A DNA stretch of 7,179 bases from an uncultured Verrucomicrobiota bacterium. GTDB lineage: Bacteria; Verrucomicrobiota; Verrucomicrobiae; Opitutales; Opitutaceae. Each line of letters opens with the position of its first letter. Position 1 is the first letter of the stretch. A program made the position numbers and the translations under genes. The notes beneath the pieces were generated by a model, which did no database searches, was not told the DNA's origin, and saw only the letters and a list, made by a program, of their open reading frames with translations. The stretch lies in assembly GCA_946482165.1 (NCBI GenBank), contig CAMLQS010000264.1:1-7179 (forward strand). Reading direction: 5' to 3'. Positions 1 to 7,105 of this stretch are shown here, in pieces.

Positions 1-13
1 AGGCGGCGCCTTA
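1..13 (-). other. Early stop of jetC and trailing bases at the window edge
   Basis: The minus strand reads TAC (Tyr), TAA, GGC GCC GCC T to the edge. The family normally continues here towards Walker B (a hydrophobic run ending in Asp-Glu). Reading through TAA in frame gives Gly-Ala-Ala; skipping one T instead gives Lys-Ala-Pro-Pro. Either could be the original continuation, so the stop may reflect a substitution or a one-base shift. Too few bases remain to decide. Confidence 0.5.
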
Positions 14-3000
14 GTAATGCGCGTCCGCGGCGGCGAAACGAGGGAGGGTCAAGGCCAGCGCCTGCCTGCCTCCCGAGCCGGTGCCATAGGTCGTCTTGTT
101 GAGGCGTCGCCATTGGCCTTCCTGCTGGCGCTCGATGACGAAACGATGCCAGCGCCGGTAGTCGAGCGCGCGGGCGAGGTGATCGCGCCACGAGCCGGAT
201 TCGTCGGCGGTTTGTTCGGCGGCGATGCGACCCTGGAGAAACGCGGCGACGGCGGCGCGTTCGGCGGGCGTCCATAGTTCGCCTTTTTTTAGCAGGATCG
301 GGCGCACTTCGTGGAAACGGATCTCGGTGTCCGCCTCCCACTGGAAGCGGAAGCGCACGCCGGTGCTGGTGGGGCGGGAATAAAGTTCCTCGTTGGCGGA
401 TGCGCGCCAGAGCTCGGCGGCGCGGATCAGCTTTTGAAGTTCGACGGCCGCCTCGGCGAGCAGATGGTTTTCGATGATCTCCCGCTCGCGCTCCTGAAGC
501 AGGCGGCCGCGCGCCTCGATCTCGGAGGAAAAGGCGGCGTGCAGTTCCGTCATGGTCAGCACGCGCGCCTGGAAGACGCACCGCACGAGGACGACGTCCT
601 GCACCTGGTGCGTTTCGGCGGCGTGGCCGTGCGAGGTGAGGCGGTCTCGCAGGTCTTGGATGTGCCCGTGGATCTGGTCTTGGCGCTGTTGCCAGCCGGA
701 GTCGTCGGACGGGACTTCGGAAAGCCGGGTTTCGATGTCGCGGGCGATCTCGACGGCGCCGGAGACGCTCCACTCCTCTTCGAAATCGTGCGCGGCTAGC
801 GCGGAGTCGGCGTCGACCAGCAGGCGCTGGGCGGCGAGCTGGCGCAGCCGGGTGATCGCCTCGCCACGCAGGGCTTCTTGATCGGTTCGTTTCTGGTTCG
901 CAGTCGTTTGATTCTCCTGCGCGCGGGCGTGGGCGGTCGCTTGGTCCACGCGTTGCGTGTCGTTGTCGCGAAGTTCCTTTTTCAGGCTTTCGACCAAGGT
1001 CTTCGCGGCTTGGTGTTTTTCCAAAATCGCTTTCACGGACTGCCCGTGGCTTTCCTCCAGCGTCTTGAAATGTCGGAGCGCGGCCTCGGCCTTGAGCGCG
1101 GCGGACAAGCGACGCTCTTCGCGACCGGTAAATTCGGTTTCGGCCGCCGCGGTCTGCTCCCGCGCCTGCGCGAGCTGGCTGGCGATGGTCTCGGCGTGGC
1201 CGAGCGTGGGCCAAAGCGTGGCGAGCGAAGTGGCGTAGTGCTGGGTGGCATCCGTCAGCGCCGGCAGGTGGCCGAGCCAGCCGGCGAGCTTCAGGTCGGC
1301 GGCGTCCTGCTGAAGCCGGGCGCGCTTTTGTTCGGCCTCCGCGCGGCGGGCGTCGGCCGACTTGGCGGCGTTTTCGAAGGCGACAAAGGCTTGCGTGGTC
1401 TGGCGGACCGCGGTCCCGAGTTGGTAACCCGCGAGGAGAACGGGCTCCTCGGACGGGGCCGCCTCGAATTCGGCGGTCGCGACGACGCGGTCCTCCGCCA
1501 CGGACGCCACCAACGCCTGATTGGCGCGAAGCGCGGCTTCGGCCTCGGCAAGACTCGCCCGCAGCAGCGCCAGTTGCCGGCGGCGCGCAGCGGCCCGCGT
1601 GCTTTCGCCGATGAAGTCCGCATCCGGCTTGGTCCAGCGGCCTGACATCGGCCCGAGACGCCACGCACCATCTACGGACATCCAGTGTTCGCTTTCTCCG
1701 GGCGCGGAACCGATGCGCTCGAGCAGGTGGGAGATGGTCTGAGCGGAGAGTTGTTTCGCGGCGACGGATTCCGGATCTATGGCAGGAACCAGCAAGTTCC
1801 CCAGGTGGCGGCAGAGAGGGGCGGAAGGGGCGTTGATTCCGGCATGAGGAGGCGGCGGGACCAGAAAGGTATCCTCCTCGCCGCCGAGGACGCCTCCGTC
1901 AGGCAGGATCCAGGCGTCGAGAAGTCCCGAAGACTGAAGCGCGGCCTCCATGCCGGCGCGCGCCGCGGGCTCGACTTCGGGCCGGAAATCGCAGACGCGC
2001 CACAACGGCGCCCCGGGACGCCCCGACCGATCGGATCCGCGAGTCGCGGGTGGCGGGGGGGATCGTGTCTCCCCGGTTTCAAGGAGATCGATCTCCGTAT
2101 TCAGTTTATCGATATTCCGGGCGAGCTCGCCGGCGGTCTGCCTGAGATCGGTTTCGCGCGCGGCAAGGGCCGAGATGGCCTGTTGATGCGCGGCCTGGGC
2201 CGCGAGGCGGAGCGGACCGGGGCCTTCCCGTCGATCCAGCCAGGATGCGAAGTTGTCGGCCAGGGAGGACGGAGGAATTGGCCGAAGCAGACGGGCGGCG
2301 GCCTGCCAGGCGGTGTAGCGTTCGATCAGGCCGGCGCCCGCCGCAGCGAGATTGTCGCGCGCATTGTGTTCTTCGAGCCGGGCTTCGCCGGCTTTGGCCT
2401 CGGCCTGACGCAGCTCCCCTTCCGCTTGTGCAAGGGCGCGCCCGGCTTCGGTCGCCGCGTCTTCCAGTTTGACGAGCAGGCGGAGGCTTTCGAGTCGTTT
2501 GGCGATCGTCTGCTTCAACGAGACCTCGGCGGCTTTGTAGGCGCGCGGCGGTTGATCGTCGGAGAAATGCTCGCGATGCGCGTCGTCCAGCGCGGCGGCG
2601 TTTGCGGCGCTGGCGGCGGCGCGAAGGACGCCCGCCAGATTTTCCTCGAAGGCGGCGAACTGCTCTTCGATCAGGTTTTGCCGGGCCTGGGCCAACTGGA
2701 GTGCGCCGGCGGCTTTTTCCTCGTCGGCCTTGGCTGCGACGAGGGCGTCCGCGGCGGCTTGGGCGGCCTCGCCCGCGAGGCGGATTTCGTCGGCGGTGCG
2801 CATTTCGGGACTGTTGGCGAGGGTGCGTTCGTCGGCCTCGGCTCCGGCAAGGCGAGTGTCGAGTTCCTCCCGCTGGCGTTGAAGCGAGGCGAGCGCGGCT
2901 TCGGCGGCTTCGAGGCGTTTGGCGGCGTCCTTGGCCGCGCGCTGGGCGCCTTCGTAGGCGGAGTTGGCGGTGCGAACTTCGGCCGCCCTCCGGCGCACGG

Positions 3001-3859
3001 CGATGCGCACATAGACGGCGTATTCGCGGAGAAACGCGGCGACGGCTTCCCTCGCCGCAGTGAAGTCGCGCACGGTGTCCTTGTCGGCTTGCAGGCCGCG
3101 GAAGGACTCCGCCACCTCCTCCACGATGGTCGCGGCGAGAGTGGGCAACGCGTCGCCGAGGGCGTCGGGCAGCTCGTTTTCGTCGAGCTTTCGCGTGAGC
3201 TGCGGACGGCGCAGGCGGATGAGCAGCTCGATCAGCGCACCGTAGCGCGGGCCGAGCCCGAAAAGCGTTTGATCGACCACCTGCCGGTAGGCTTCGGCTT
3301 TCTGATAAACCTGGCCGGAAGCGCCGATGACTTCGGCGAGTCGTTCGCGACCGAGCGGCGTGCGCTGGTGGTTTTGCAGGAAGAGGTCACGTCCGATGCG
3401 GAGCGTGGTGGTGAAAAACCAGCGCGTGTGGAGCCCGGTGTGGCCTTCGACGGCGCGCAGGCCGCAACCGAGCGTGAAGAAGTGGTCCACCCCGTGCGCG
3501 TCGCGACGGCCGAACTCTATCCATGTGTAGCCGGTGCGATCCTTGTGCCGGCCCATGAGCAGATTCCACTCGATGCGCTTGGCGGCGTCGCCATCCGGTT
3601 CGACGCGGGCGGGCGAGACCTCGCCGTCGAGGAGGAAGGGGAGTTGCAGCGCCAGCACGCGGGATTTGCCGCTGCCGTTGTTGCCGCGCAGGAGCAGCCG
3701 ACCCTGCTCGTAGTGGAACTCCTCGTAATCGTAGCGATAGAGGTTGAGCACGCCGCTGCGCAGGGGCTGCCAGCGTTCGCGGCCCGGAGCCGGCAGGGCG
3801 GGGCCGCCGGAGTCGGAATGCGCCTTGACCTCAAGGATGGGTGAGTGAGGGGCGGTCAT
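11..3859 (-). CDS. jetC: JetC-like SMC ATPase of a Wadjet system (TIGR02680 family), C-terminally truncated
   Basis: This is the SMC-like motor subunit of a Wadjet anti-plasmid complex, 1282 residues from the chosen start. Visible parts: the N-terminal ATPase lobe with Walker A GNNGSGKS at residues 59-66; a family-typical segment with RRPQL at 217-221 (Q-loop candidate); Ala/Glu/Gln-rich coiled coil at about 300-605; a globular hinge-like region at about 615-755 containing LWRVCDF (619-625), GLLDAW (645-650) and FIGES (749-753); a returning coiled coil to about 1130; and a C-terminal lobe with RPTSTG (1162-1167), DYRRWHRF (1233-1240) and the signature-like SGGRQ (1262-1266). The ATG at 3859 was chosen because it overlaps the jetB stop as ATGA and sits the expected distance before Walker A. 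The open frame continues upstream to 4216, but that stretch is Arg/Pro-rich, out-of-frame jetB sequence. The protein ends at a TAA (11-13), 16 residues after SGGRQ, so the Walker B and D-loop segment usual in the family is absent. It may therefore be a pseudogene. Family assignment is firm; activity is doubtful. Confidence 0.93.
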   Translation of the reverse strand: MTAPHSPILEVKAHSDSGGPALPAPGRERWQPLRSGVLNLYRYDYEEFHYEQGRLLLRGNNGSGKSRVLALQLPFLLDGEVSPARVEPDGDAAKRIEWNLLMGRHKDRTGYTWIEFGRRDAHGVDHFFTLGCGLRAVEGHTGLHTRWFFTTTLRIGRDLFLQNHQRTPLGRERLAEVIGASGQVYQKAEAYRQVVDQTLFGLGPRYGALIELLIRLRRPQLTRKLDENELPDALGDALPTLAATIVEEVAESFRGLQADKDTVRDFTAAREAVAAFLREYAVYVRIAVRRRAAEVRTANSAYEGAQRAAKDAAKRLEAAEAALASLQRQREELDTRLAGAEADERTLANSPEMRTADEIRLAGEAAQAAADALVAAKADEEKAAGALQLAQARQNLIEEQFAAFEENLAGVLRAAASAANAAALDDAHREHFSDDQPPRAYKAAEVSLKQTIAKRLESLRLLVKLEDAATEAGRALAQAEGELRQAEAKAGEARLEEHNARDNLAAAGAGLIERYTAWQAAARLLRPIPPSSLADNFASWLDRREGPGPLRLAAQAAHQQAISALAARETDLRQTAGELARNIDKLNTEIDLLETGETRSPPPPATRGSDRSGRPGAPLWRVCDFRPEVEPAARAGMEAALQSSGLLDAWILPDGGVLGGEEDTFLVPPPPHAGINAPSAPLCRHLGNLLVPAIDPESVAAKQLSAQTISHLLERIGSAPGESEHWMSVDGAWRLGPMSGRWTKPDADFIGESTRAAARRRQLALLRASLAEAEAALRANQALVASVAEDRVVATAEFEAAPSEEPVLLAGYQLGTAVRQTTQAFVAFENAAKSADARRAEAEQKRARLQQDAADLKLAGWLGHLPALTDATQHYATSLATLWPTLGHAETIASQLAQAREQTAAAETEFTGREERRLSAALKAEAALRHFKTLEESHGQSVKAILEKHQAAKTLVESLKKELRDNDTQRVDQATAHARAQENQTTANQKRTDQEALRGEAITRLRQLAAQRLLVDADSALAAHDFEEEWSVSGAVEIARDIETRLSEVPSDDSGWQQRQDQIHGHIQDLRDRLTSHGHAAETHQVQDVVLVRCVFQARVLTMTELHAAFSSEIEARGRLLQEREREIIENHLLAEAAVELQKLIRAAELWRASANEELYSRPTSTGVRFRFQWEADTEIRFHEVRPILLKKGELWTPAERAAVAAFLQGRIAAEQTADESGSWRDHLARALDYRRWHRFVIERQQEGQWRRLNKTTYGTGSGGRQALALTLPRFAAADAHY
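62..76 (-). other. ABC signature-like motif of JetC (SGGRQ)
   Basis: These bases encode SGGRQ, residues 1262-1266, where SMC-like and ABC ATPases carry the signature that contacts ATP on the opposing head. The Ser-Gly-Gly core is intact, but the usual acidic residue of SGGE is Arg. It is followed by ALALTLPRFAAADAHY, the expected helix, and then the stop codon. Confidence 0.75.
3662..3685 (-). other. Walker A (P-loop) of JetC
   Basis: These bases encode GNNGSGKS, residues 59-66 of JetC, matching the GxxGxGK[ST] nucleotide-binding loop. The preceding GRLLLR and the GNNGSGKS form are typical of SMC/SbcC-like ATPases. All key residues are intact, so the N-terminal half of the ATPase looks functional. 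Confidence 0.95.
3856..3859 (-). promoter_or_regulatory. ATGA stop-start overlap of jetB and jetC
   Basis: On the minus strand the jetC start ATG (3859-3857) and the jetB stop TGA (3858-3856) share two bases. This arrangement is typical of translational coupling, where the ribosome ending jetB re-initiates on jetC, and would keep the two subunits in related amounts. It also fixes the jetC start. The preceding bases are pyrimidine-rich with no Shine-Dalgarno, which fits dependence on coupling. Confidence 0.85.
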
Positions 3860-5202
3860 GAGGAGAGAGCGGGGGCGTCGGATTCGTCGATCGGGGCGAG
3901 GGCGGCGCTGGCGCGCAGCGCGAAGCGGCCAAGCGCGGGCAGGGGGCGGAGGGCATCGCCGGAACGCACGATCAGCGAGAGGCCCGCGAGGCGGTCGAGC
4001 ACGAGCTCGGCGAGGGAGATTTCCGCACCGCGCAGCTCCACCTCTTTTTTCCAGTGGTGACGATGCTGACGGATCAGTCGCGCGATTTTCTGACGCACGG
4101 CCTCGACGGTCAGTCCGGCGGCTTCGCCTTTGCGGAGAAGATCCGCCAGCCAGGTCGCGATGAGAAGCGTGAGGTGGCCCTCGGTGCCTTCTTCGGGGAG
4201 GCCGGAGTCGGTGCAATCGCCGTCGAGATCGACCAAGGCGATGCCTTCGGCGCGCACCTCGGCATGGAGGCCGCTCGCGGACGTCAGGGCGTCGAGCAAG
4301 AACGAGCGCTGGCGGTCGAGGTAGGCTCGGGCCTCGTCGTCGAGCGTGTCGTAGTAGAGCACGGGATCGTCGAGCAGGCGGCCGACGAAGCGGGAACGCA
4401 GGGCGCGGTTGCGGGCGTCGGGCGTGTCGGGAAGCGCGGAATCGAGCAGGGCGTCGAGCCGCGCCTGGAAATCCGTGGCCGTGATGAGCGAGGGGCTGCG
4501 GTGGGCGAGGAGGATCAGCGAGAGGACGGGTCGGCTGACGTTGTAGAGAACATCCGACTGGCGGTCGCGCAGCAGGTGTTCCTCGTCGCCTTGGACGCGG
4601 CGGAGAACGCCGAGCGAGACCAGCAGCCTCAGCGCGTGGACGAAATCGCGCCGGCCGGACTGTTCATCGAGCGACCAAACGAAGCCGGCCGCCACGAAGG
4701 TCGGTTCGGCCGCGATCGCCAGCTCGATGCTTCCGGCCAGATGCCCGAGGGTGACCTGGCGGTCGCCACGCTCCAGCGCCGCCAGCGCCAGACAGAAGAG
4801 AATGTAGCGCGCCCGGTTGAACGGTTCCTCGCTGCGTGGATCGAGCGCGGGACGGGTGGCGTCGTCCGAGAGCGCGGGGCGTTTGCGCAGGCGGGCGGCC
4901 TCGGCCGTGACGACCAGGGACCATTCGGCGTGGTGCGCGAACCAATCGGACAACCACTCCCGGTGCCGCCGCACCAGCGTGAACGCGGAGGCGGTGGCGC
5001 CGTCGGGAACGAGCAGCGGAGTTTGGAGCAAGGCGCGCAACGCGGTCCGGCGTTCCTCCGCCATGAGGGGCTCCGCCTCCTCGCGCAGGCGGGCGAGACG
5101 CGCGCGCCGGGAATTCGGCCGGAAACCGGCCCCCGGCGCGGCAGGTGGAGTCGGCGCTGGAACGGGAGGACGCGGGGGAATCGGCGGAGTGGGCGTGCTC
5201 AT
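3856..5202 (-). CDS. jetB: JetB-like subunit of a Wadjet system (TIGR02678 family, DUF2398)
   Basis: This 448-residue protein is the DUF2398 partner of the condensin-like complex. By analogy with type I Wadjet it should be the small winged-helix (KITE-like) regulator that binds the JetA kleisin and the JetC head; that role is inferred. Residues 1-30 are a Pro/Ala-rich, probably disordered tail. The conserved family pattern follows: RRTALRALLQTPLL (51-64), LVRRHREWLSDWF (76-88), ARLRKRP (103-109), a hydrophobic helix YILFCLALAALERGD (133-147), and TLGHLAG (151-157). No signal peptide or membrane segment is evident, so it is cytoplasmic. The start follows the jetA stop by 30 bases and has no Shine-Dalgarno sequence; the stop overlaps the jetC start by 4 bases. 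A later start is possible because the N-terminal tail is not conserved-looking. The family call rests on recognising motif order, not on a search. Confidence 0.92.
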   Translation of the reverse strand: MSTPTPPIPPRPPVPAPTPPAAPGAGFRPNSRRARLARLREEAEPLMAEERRTALRALLQTPLLVPDGATASAFTLVRRHREWLSDWFAHHAEWSLVVTAEAARLRKRPALSDDATRPALDPRSEEPFNRARYILFCLALAALERGDRQVTLGHLAGSIELAIAAEPTFVAAGFVWSLDEQSGRRDFVHALRLLVSLGVLRRVQGDEEHLLRDRQSDVLYNVSRPVLSLILLAHRSPSLITATDFQARLDALLDSALPDTPDARNRALRSRFVGRLLDDPVLYYDTLDDEARAYLDRQRSFLLDALTSASGLHAEVRAEGIALVDLDGDCTDSGLPEEGTEGHLTLLIATWLADLLRKGEAAGLTVEAVRQKIARLIRQHRHHWKKEVELRGAEISLAELVLDRLAGLSLIVRSGDALRPLPALGRFALRASAALAPIDESDAPALSS

Positions 5203-5232: not shown

Positions 5233-6753
5233 TCAGAGGGTGGATTCGATCGTGACCCAGTGGTCGGGGCCGGTGAAGGCGCCGTCGCGCGTGACGAGGG
5301 TGGCGAGCGCCCCGCCGGGCACGGGTTCGAGCCGCACGCGCAGGGTGCCGTCGGCGGACTCGGCCTCGACGGGCCCCGAGTTGCCGGCGCGTCGGGTGAG
5401 CGCATGGCCCAGCAGGTCGAGGAAGAGGCGGAAGGAATCGTCGTTGAGCGGACCGAGCGCGGCGAGCCGGCGACGGCCGGCGTCGATGAGATGGTGGCGG
5501 GCGCGCTCGATCTGCGCCGCCTGCTCGCGGGCGAGGGCGCGCAGACGGGCTTTTTCAGCCGAGTGGTCGATCACGGCGGGCGCCGGGCCGCGCGGGGCGG
5601 AGCGCCCCTGCTGGCGCAGACGTGGCGACAACCACACGGGAGCGCCGTCGAGCCAGCTGGTGCGCGGCGTTTCGCCCCGGGAGGAGCGTTCGGCGAGGGT
5701 TTCGGAGTTGATGCGGAGGTGGCGAGCAGGGGAGAGGGCGAAGGCCGAGCGCCAGAGCCGGTGGCACGCGGACTCGTCGGGCGCCTCGGCGAGCCAGCGG
5801 GCGAGCGTGGAAAAATCGGCGGCGCGGTCGGCGCGGCTGGTGCGACGATCGTTGATCTGGGAGACGGCGGTGAGCAGCGCCGGGATGGCCGCGCGGGCGC
5901 GGGACCGCAGCATCTCGGCCTGCGAAGGCGTGTCGCCCGCGATGAACCAGCGGCGGAGGCCCTGCCACGCCTGCCGCCAGCGCGCGGTCGCGAGTTCATG
6001 GGCGTCCGGAGCCGGGTCGAGCATGTCGACGAGATCGCGACGCGCGGCGGCGGCGAAGGCGAGATCCACGCCGCATTCCTCGAGGAGGAGCAGCGCCTCG
6101 GTGATGCGACTGGTGGCGACGACGAGTTCGCCGATGAATTTTTCCAGGTAGTCGATCAGCTTCTCCTTGTAGGCGATGAACGCGTCGATGCCGATGCCGT
6201 GCAGTTCGAGCGTGCTGTGCAGGCCGCGCATGAAGGACTGGGCGCGGGAGGTGAGCTGTTCGAAACGGGCGACGAGACTGGACAGGATCTGGTGGAGTTT
6301 GGCGTCGTCGAGAGGGTCGTCGGCGAGGCGCGGGAGAAGCGCGTCGAGGAGTTCGCCGATGTCCTGAAGGGCGGCGGTCTGGAGTTCGCCGGGGCGGTGC
6401 AGGTATTCGTCGAAGACCGAGAGGGCTTGCTCGGCGGCCTCGCCGGCGGCGCTGAGCTGGTAGAGGCGACGGCGCTGGTAAAACTCCTCGATGGTTGCCG
6501 CGTCGGCGTTGTCGGCGGTGTCGTCGAGGTTGCCCCAGGCGCGGAGCTGCTGGAGCGCCGACGAGAGGGCATCGAGGTCCGCGGAGAAGGAGGTGGCGAG
6601 AGCGGCGTGGATTTCGGAGGGGCGAAGGGAAATGACGAAGCGGGCGCGCTCGGCGACGAAGAAGGAGAGGATGGCCCGATAGAGCGGGGTTTTCTCGACG
6701 TTGAGATGGGCGAAGACCGCGTAGGAGGCGGAGGTGTCGGGGGAGGCGCTCAT
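5233..6753 (-). CDS. jetA: JetA-like subunit of a Wadjet system (TIGR02677 family, DUF2397)
   Basis: This 506-residue protein is the first gene of the Wadjet core. In the type I system JetA is the kleisin-like subunit bridging the SMC heads, and the same role is inferred here. Family features seen: an N-terminal helical, winged-helix-like region with LYRAILSFF (24-32) and SLRPSEIHAAL (42-52); a segment LRAWGNLDDTA (70-80) followed by TIEEFYQRRRLYQLSAAGEAAEQAL (starting near residue 87, given here as the DUF2397 hallmark); a long mostly helical middle; and WLDGAPVWLSPRLR (367-380), then a charged helix rich in Ala, Arg and Glu. The C-terminal 60 residues read like a beta-rich small domain. The ATG at 6753 gives a normal N-terminus for the family; only CT-rich sequence and no Shine-Dalgarno precedes it. 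A 30-base gap separates it from jetB, so co-transcription is likely. No membrane segment or signal peptide is seen. Confidence 0.92.
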   Translation of the reverse strand: MSASPDTSASYAVFAHLNVEKTPLYRAILSFFVAERARFVISLRPSEIHAALATSFSADLDALSSALQQLRAWGNLDDTADNADAATIEEFYQRRRLYQLSAAGEAAEQALSVFDEYLHRPGELQTAALQDIGELLDALLPRLADDPLDDAKLHQILSSLVARFEQLTSRAQSFMRGLHSTLELHGIGIDAFIAYKEKLIDYLEKFIGELVVATSRITEALLLLEECGVDLAFAAAARRDLVDMLDPAPDAHELATARWRQAWQGLRRWFIAGDTPSQAEMLRSRARAAIPALLTAVSQINDRRTSRADRAADFSTLARWLAEAPDESACHRLWRSAFALSPARHLRINSETLAERSSRGETPRTSWLDGAPVWLSPRLRQQGRSAPRGPAPAVIDHSAEKARLRALAREQAAQIERARHHLIDAGRRRLAALGPLNDDSFRLFLDLLGHALTRRAGNSGPVEAESADGTLRVRLEPVPGGALATLVTRDGAFTGPDHWVTIESTL

Positions 6754-6801: not shown

Positions 6802-6831
6802 GTTATATTACTTTCCAGCGCTCGATGTCGC
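6802..6831 (-). promoter_or_regulatory. Possible sigma-70-like promoter for jetA
   Basis: Within the end of the small gene, the minus strand carries TATAAC (6807-6802, 5 of 6 to the -10 consensus) inside TAATATAAC, the most AT-rich patch nearby. An 18-base spacer precedes it, with GCGACA (6831-6826, 4 of 6 to the -35 consensus). Transcription would begin near 6795, leaving a leader of about 40 bases before the jetA ATG. The AT-rich patch also encodes the last codons and stop of the small gene, so chance is a fair alternative. Confidence 0.25.
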
Positions 6832-7105
6832 GGGAGCTGAAGTCGCAGCCGGCGACGCGGAGGGCGAGGGGCTCGTGCGGGTCCCACGGATAGCGGGCGG
6901 GATCGGAGCGGAGTTCGAGCAGGCCGTTGACGGCCGGGACGGGGAAGGCGGGACGGAAGGTGATTTCGACGCGCTCGCCGAGCGGCAGGCCCCAGACGCG
7001 GGCGATCTCGTCGCGGAGCTGTAGCGGCGTTTGTCCCGTATCGGCCCGTCCAAGCTTCGGCGCCCCCGGGGCGCCGAAGGAGAAGGCGAGTTGATCGGGT
7101 GGCAT
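6803..7105 (-). CDS. Small hypothetical protein upstream of jetA
   Basis: This is an unrecognised 100-residue protein. It looks like real coding sequence rather than a shadow: after a Gly/Ala/Pro-rich start (about residues 1-25) it has an amphipathic stretch QLRDEIARVWGLPLGERVEI (29-48), a middle rich in Pro and Leu with YPWDP (72-76), and a hydrophilic end SSRDIERWKVI. No cysteine cluster, signal peptide or membrane segment is visible. It lies in the same direction as jetA and ends 49 bases before it, so it may belong to the operon or may be the last gene of an unrelated upstream unit. The frame remains open to the window edge upstream of this ATG and no Shine-Dalgarno is present, so the start could lie further 5'. 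A minus-one overlapping frame of similar extent is Ser/Pro/Arg-rich and was judged a shadow. No function is proposed. Confidence 0.65.
   Translation of the reverse strand: MPPDQLAFSFGAPGAPKLGRADTGQTPLQLRDEIARVWGLPLGERVEITFRPAFPVPAVNGLLELRSDPARYPWDPHEPLALRVAGCDFSSRDIERWKVI
7055..7079. repeat. Perfect 12-bp inverted repeat with 1-base centre
   Basis: The arm CTTCGGCGCCCC (7055-7066) is matched exactly by its reverse complement at 7068-7079, with a single C between. As RNA it would form a very stable GC hairpin of about 10-11 pairs once a loop opens. It sits in codons for the Gly/Ala/Pro-rich start of the small hypothetical gene. There is no T-run on either side in either direction, so a classic intrinsic terminator is not supported. 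It could be an operator-like palindrome, an mRNA structure limiting translation, or a dispersed palindromic element. Confidence 0.6.

Follow-up and report, generated by a model that had tools for sequence, protein, structure and literature searches.

Gene content of the window

The window, by which we mean the whole stretch of 7,179 nucleotides analysed here, carries jetA, jetB and the 5' portion of jetC, all on the minus strand. The features are listed below, with P0001 denoting a database relative of the window's JetC that is described in a later section.

5233..6753, minus strand: jetA (kleisin subunit), intact; TIGR02677 / DUF2397
3856..5202, minus strand: jetB (KITE subunit), intact; TIGR02678 / DUF2398; jetB stop and jetC start share ATGA
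11..3859, minus strand: jetC (SMC/MukB-like ATPase of type II Wadjet), 5' 1282 codons; TIGR02680; TAA at 11-13 closes the frame
3662..3685, minus strand: Walker A of JetC, GNNGSGKS, residues 59-66, intact, as read from the translation
11..67, minus strand: aberrant tail holding four of the six residue-level codon differences from P0001, including the stop, as seen in the alignment with relatives

JetA matches TIGR02677 with 434 bits (cut-off 166) and is also recognised by Pfam PF09660 and PADLOC JetA2; JetB matches TIGR02678 with 284 bits (cut-off 125), along with Pfam PF09661 and PADLOC JetB2; and JetC matches TIGR02680 with 898 bits (cut-off 463) across profile positions 1-1272 of 1356, with PADLOC assigning it to JetC2. 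All three proteins thus fall into the families expected of a type II Wadjet system, since we take the set TIGR02677/02678/02680 to denote that type, in agreement with the '2' in the PADLOC labels. Within JetC, six of the eight Walker A columns are invariant or nearly so among aligned relatives. The match to Pfam PF13558 (SbcC_Walker_B), on the other hand, covers profile positions 2-54 of 90 and ends there, so that the part bearing Walker B is absent from the window's jetC frame.

Upstream of jetA lies a 100-aa open reading frame on the minus strand (6803-7105) for which Pfam, NCBIfam and PADLOC gave no match; a longer version of the frame reaching to 7177 has none in Pfam. It may belong to a gene extending past the window's edge.

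The jetC frame ends shortly after an altered ABC signature

From its ATG at 3857-3859, jetC runs for 1282 codons to the TAA at 11-13. The motif SGGRQ occupies residues 1262-1266 (window 62-76) and lies ahead of the position of Walker B, 16 residues before the stop, a placement given in the preliminary description that both translation and alignment with P0001 bear out. Only 10 bases follow the TAA, so that absence of Walker B from the genome cannot be read from the window.

The same description had the gene matching its family throughout, up to a stop before Walker B. The extent of the match stands (TIGR02680 positions 1-1272), but the match is not clean, as the last 18 codons carry an Arg, a Gln and an Asp at near-invariant sites. 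To locate these we aligned the window with all 120 listed relatives (alignment A1; a second alignment, A2, of 34 of them served for two collection scans), 119 of which cover the tail; the remaining one, P0090, is gapped there because it ends upstream of the signature. At residues 1265-1266 the window has Arg-Gln where all 119 covering relatives have Glu-Lys, and its Asp at residue 1279 replaces an Ala found in 117 of 119. Of the elements of a functional SMC head, then, Walker A is in place, whereas the ABC signature, SGGEK in the family, is already aberrant as SGGRQ, given that both residues after SGG are changed.

A near-identical protein continues past the stop

A search with the whole JetC scored the 7993 best candidates and returned 1381 matches, the best 120 of which were used. 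Among them is P0001, an ENA metagenome protein of 1421 aa encoded on a contig of 8715 bases and belonging to a cluster of six member sequences. BLASTP aligns all 1282 residues of the window's JetC to P0001 with 1277 identities (99.6%), five mismatches and no gap. P0001 then extends past the window's stop through PRLVMLDEAFAGID; its continuation, ...SGGEKALALTLPRFAAAAAHYKGAASTAPRLVMLDEAFAGIDPTMR..., includes the Walker B motif, catalytic Glu and D-loop.

When the stop and the three codons following it are counted in, window and P0001 differ in 6 of 1286 codons; note that these are residue-level counts in which synonymous differences are invisible. Two of the six differences, at residues 5 and 16 close to the N-terminus, fall in variable columns and are the only residue changes in the first 1262 codons. 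The other four, at residues 1265, 1266, 1279 and 1283 (the stop), are packed into the last 24 codons, a concentration expected by chance with P = 1.4e-6 (at least four of six; hypergeometric test).

The contig of P0001 exceeds the window by about 1.5 kb, which would roughly accommodate the rest of jetC plus a jetD of the size found in the Opitutus locus described below, and the two contigs appear to cover the same locus. They do not represent an identical strain, as the two differences on the N-terminal side attest. For JetB, a further search for relatives (best 120 of 1346 matches used) yielded P0121, an ENA protein on a different contig of 3365 bases, which is identical to residues 47-448 of the window's JetB at 401 of 402 positions. 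Since both P0001 and P0121 differ slightly from the window, some real variation exists. Nevertheless, jetB, together with jetC up to codon 1262, is very close to other sequences, and a clustered departure is seen only in the last 67 bases; this closeness to database proteins was compared for jetB and jetC, with jetA assessed by family scans alone.

Conserved columns are broken only in the tail

To establish whether the tail stands out independently of P0001, we considered the 198 alignment columns kept in at least 97% of relatives, 21 of which lie in residues 1259-1282. The window departs from the conserved residue three times, and all three departures fall within those 21 columns (hypergeometric P = 0.001). 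Across the same 198 columns P0001 does not depart once and the median relative departs once. The control is slightly noisy, with 11 of the 120 relatives showing at least one departure in these tail columns and two of the 11 showing three; the Glu-Lys pair after SGG, however, is unchanged in every relative that covers the tail.

Neither SGGRQ nor AAADAHY occurs in any of 137 JetC proteins fetched (257 proteins were searched in all), even though one search, which gave 79 proteins, had taken its words from the tail of the window itself. Signature plus Walker B could be picked up by a regular expression in 123 of these 137 proteins. Among the 14 that it missed, P0090 is the fragment already mentioned and the other 13 are 750-1552 aa long, with the usual C-terminal part visible in their last 40 residues.

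The reading frame is probably unchanged across the stop

A one-base insertion, which the preliminary description had offered as an explanation and which would shift the frame to Lys-Ala-Pro-Pro, does not agree with the bases beyond the TAA. In the original frame these encode Gly-Ala-Ala, as in P0001; of the 119 relatives, 31 have Gly at the first of these columns, 118 have Ala at the second and 48 have Ala at the third. The shifted frame would place Ala in the first column, where every one of the 119 has Ser, Gly or Thr, and Pro in the second. Because Gly-Ala-Ala fits both P0001 and the family, it is simplest to assume that one frame runs through the stop, and we reject the insertion.

Other jetC loci

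Might jetC naturally end at this point in some lineages, with the remainder of the head encoded by a following frame, as had also been suggested? We scanned all frames of 114 loci (open reading frames of at least 100 aa, E up to 1e-10) with a profile built from relatives excluding the window, having found an earlier survey by regular expression too narrow (23 of 85 loci recognised). A JetC match was obtained in 102 loci, and not one of these matches ends between profile positions 1250 and 1300, that is, between signature and Walker B. One hundred reach beyond Walker B; the two that fall short do so elsewhere, one (L093) stopping at position 636 and the other (L085) contributing a stretch that ends at 1020. 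Restricting attention to loci above 300 bits, 91 of 93 reach beyond Walker B. For the loci examined we therefore reject both a split head and a natural TIGR02680 terminus here; relatives ending at this site, which the preliminary description had named among the observations that would speak against its reading, were looked for and none was found among those examined. Note that the locus set leans towards intact genes, as loci were selected by a Walker A or Walker B peptide and the best 80 of 330 kept, that L081-L085 repeat L001, L007, L009 and L017, and that L094-L114 lie below the family cut-off and are probably other SMC-like proteins.

Among 387 genomes from the phylum of L001, searched without Walker-peptide selection and with two candidates scored per genome, nine scored above the cut-off and 53 at E up to 0.001. 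Eight of the nine match to profile position 1355-1356 and one (G135) stops at 619. In a smaller set each of the four genomes gave a match, that of G004 being broken into two segments (1-464 and 563-1356). When viral contigs were scanned for relatives, 71 pattern matches came up, none of them confirmed, and a literature search, mostly at the level of abstracts, found no description of a JetC cut at the window's stop site.

The locus most useful for comparison is L001, from Opitutus sp. GAS368, whose best segment is 60% identical to the window. Its genes follow the order TIGR02677-TIGR02678-TIGR02680-TIGR02679 and its jetC is unbroken (1371 aa); the 415-aa TIGR02679 gene, which we take to be jetD, starts before jetC ends. 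In Lentzea aerocolonigenes (L012, 7356-19371), two long JetC-like frames are found in one 20 kb locus.

Broken jetC genes do occur. The minus strand of L115 (contig C2 of G135; 4963-12842) carries jetA, jetB and then a jetC that is cut after profile position 636 of 1381, leaving a frame of 694 aa. Beyond it come an open reading frame resembling ParB_N (under the Pfam cut-off) and a MobA/MobL relaxase. The cut lies inside a contig, and the 3' half of jetC was not found in the 16 kb fetched. The arrangement suggests that a mobile element truncated the Wadjet locus, which would make it a better case of real Wadjet loss than the window. In L116 (777-8883, minus strand, on G004:C45, the contig of L017), jetC breaks into two frames within its coiled coil. 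jetD, too, is split over two frames, and the one with its 5' part continues into Cas4 and Cas1 domains. The resulting open frame of 1139 aa resembles a JetD-Cas4-Cas1 fusion but is probably not a real one.

What explains the stop?

We consider it probable, at roughly 88%, that the window carries an ordinary type II Wadjet operon whose jetC is intact in the organism, the stop lying within some 67 erroneous bases at the end of the contig. The stop is thus very probably not a biological truncation. Sequence errors at contig ends do occur, and an error of sequencing or assembly, one of the options in the preliminary description, is favoured both by the cluster of changes at near-invariant residues and by the near-identical, intact P0001. 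On this account the window would be one contig end, with position 1 as the presumed terminus, carrying jetA-jetB-jetC of what is probably an Opitutus-like verrucomicrobium; jetD would be expected beyond position 1, and the terminal bases may be wrong because they derive from low-quality or low-coverage read ends. Judging by its relatives, the intact JetC would act as a Wadjet SMC ATPase, in a complex (JetABC) that would, as known from those relatives, extrude DNA loops with ATP and pass small circular plasmids to the JetD nuclease. Plasmid cleavage by JetABCD requires ATP and a working JetC ATPase, according to a review (PMC10586767) that names type I systems in this context; by analogy the requirement may extend to the type II system of the window.

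A different scenario is that jetC was really and recently inactivated in one strain. Loss of Walker B, catalytic Glu and D-loop would abolish ATPase activity and with it plasmid restriction, and intact (P0001) and broken (window) versions would coexist. Losses of Wadjet are known: according to PMC12287153, a Clostridium cellulovorans mutant had lost jetABCD through a spontaneous 23-kb deletion, and targeted deletion of jetABCD in that species raised plasmid uptake. Together with the jetC cut short inside a contig in L115, this deletion makes a real inactivation of jetC possible. A pseudogene may, moreover, gather clustered changes of its own, and truncated or split jetC genes are represented by L115 and L116. 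However, a recent nonsense mutation in otherwise clean coding sequence, as the preliminary description envisaged, is unlikely, because it leaves unexplained how 18 codons came to hold three more changes at near-invariant residues while the first 1262 codons hold two changes in all. Real inactivation would also require relaxed selection to be limited to the window's terminal 67 bases. We rate real inactivation as improbable, and equally so the picture of one environmental population in which strains with intact jetC live alongside strains whose SMC head was newly disabled by a burst of signature-helix changes plus a stop before Walker B. Were it true, the window would be a snapshot of a natural population losing an anti-plasmid system, caught in the act.

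It is also conceivable, if very improbable, that the tail is chimeric, its last ~70 bases stemming from a second, degenerate jetC copy or from another strain and joined on by the assembler. Such a join would account in one step for several changes grouped at the very end, and two JetC-like frames in one locus occur elsewhere, as in L012; yet neither tail motif was seen among the 137 JetC proteins, and a chimera is in any case a form of artefact, here indistinguishable from read errors. There is next to no prospect that Walker B resides in a following frame or is reached by frameshift or recoding: the sole point in favour is that the window, with just 10 bases beyond the stop, cannot speak against it, while none of the 102 loci with a JetC match has one ending between signature and Walker B, the original frame continues after the stop, and recoding would leave the altered signature residues unexplained.

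An artefact at the contig end carries no more than a word of caution: stops less than about 70 bases from the end of a sequence should be checked before gene loss is called, and comparison with near-identical copies together with the conservation of neighbouring residues are suitable means of doing so.

Comparison with known systems

Set against type II Wadjet (JetABCD; TIGR02677/02678/02680/02679), the window shows the same order jetA-jetB-jetC, family matches far above the cut-offs and a jetB/jetC ATGA overlap. It differs in being without jetD and in having a jetC that breaks off close to where the window ends and bears an aberrant tail of 67 bases. P0001, in contrast to the window, has an intact signature, Walker B and D-loop, besides the two other substitutions near the N-terminus. 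In a wider comparison, P0001 matches both head halves of the JetC chain in PDB entries 9qe0 and 9qe1 (query 29-359 and 1084-1366; whole-sequence E 3.5e-73), the middle stretch being aligned too, albeit not significantly on its own. That JetC is a distant relative, and its own segment from signature to Walker B is complete.
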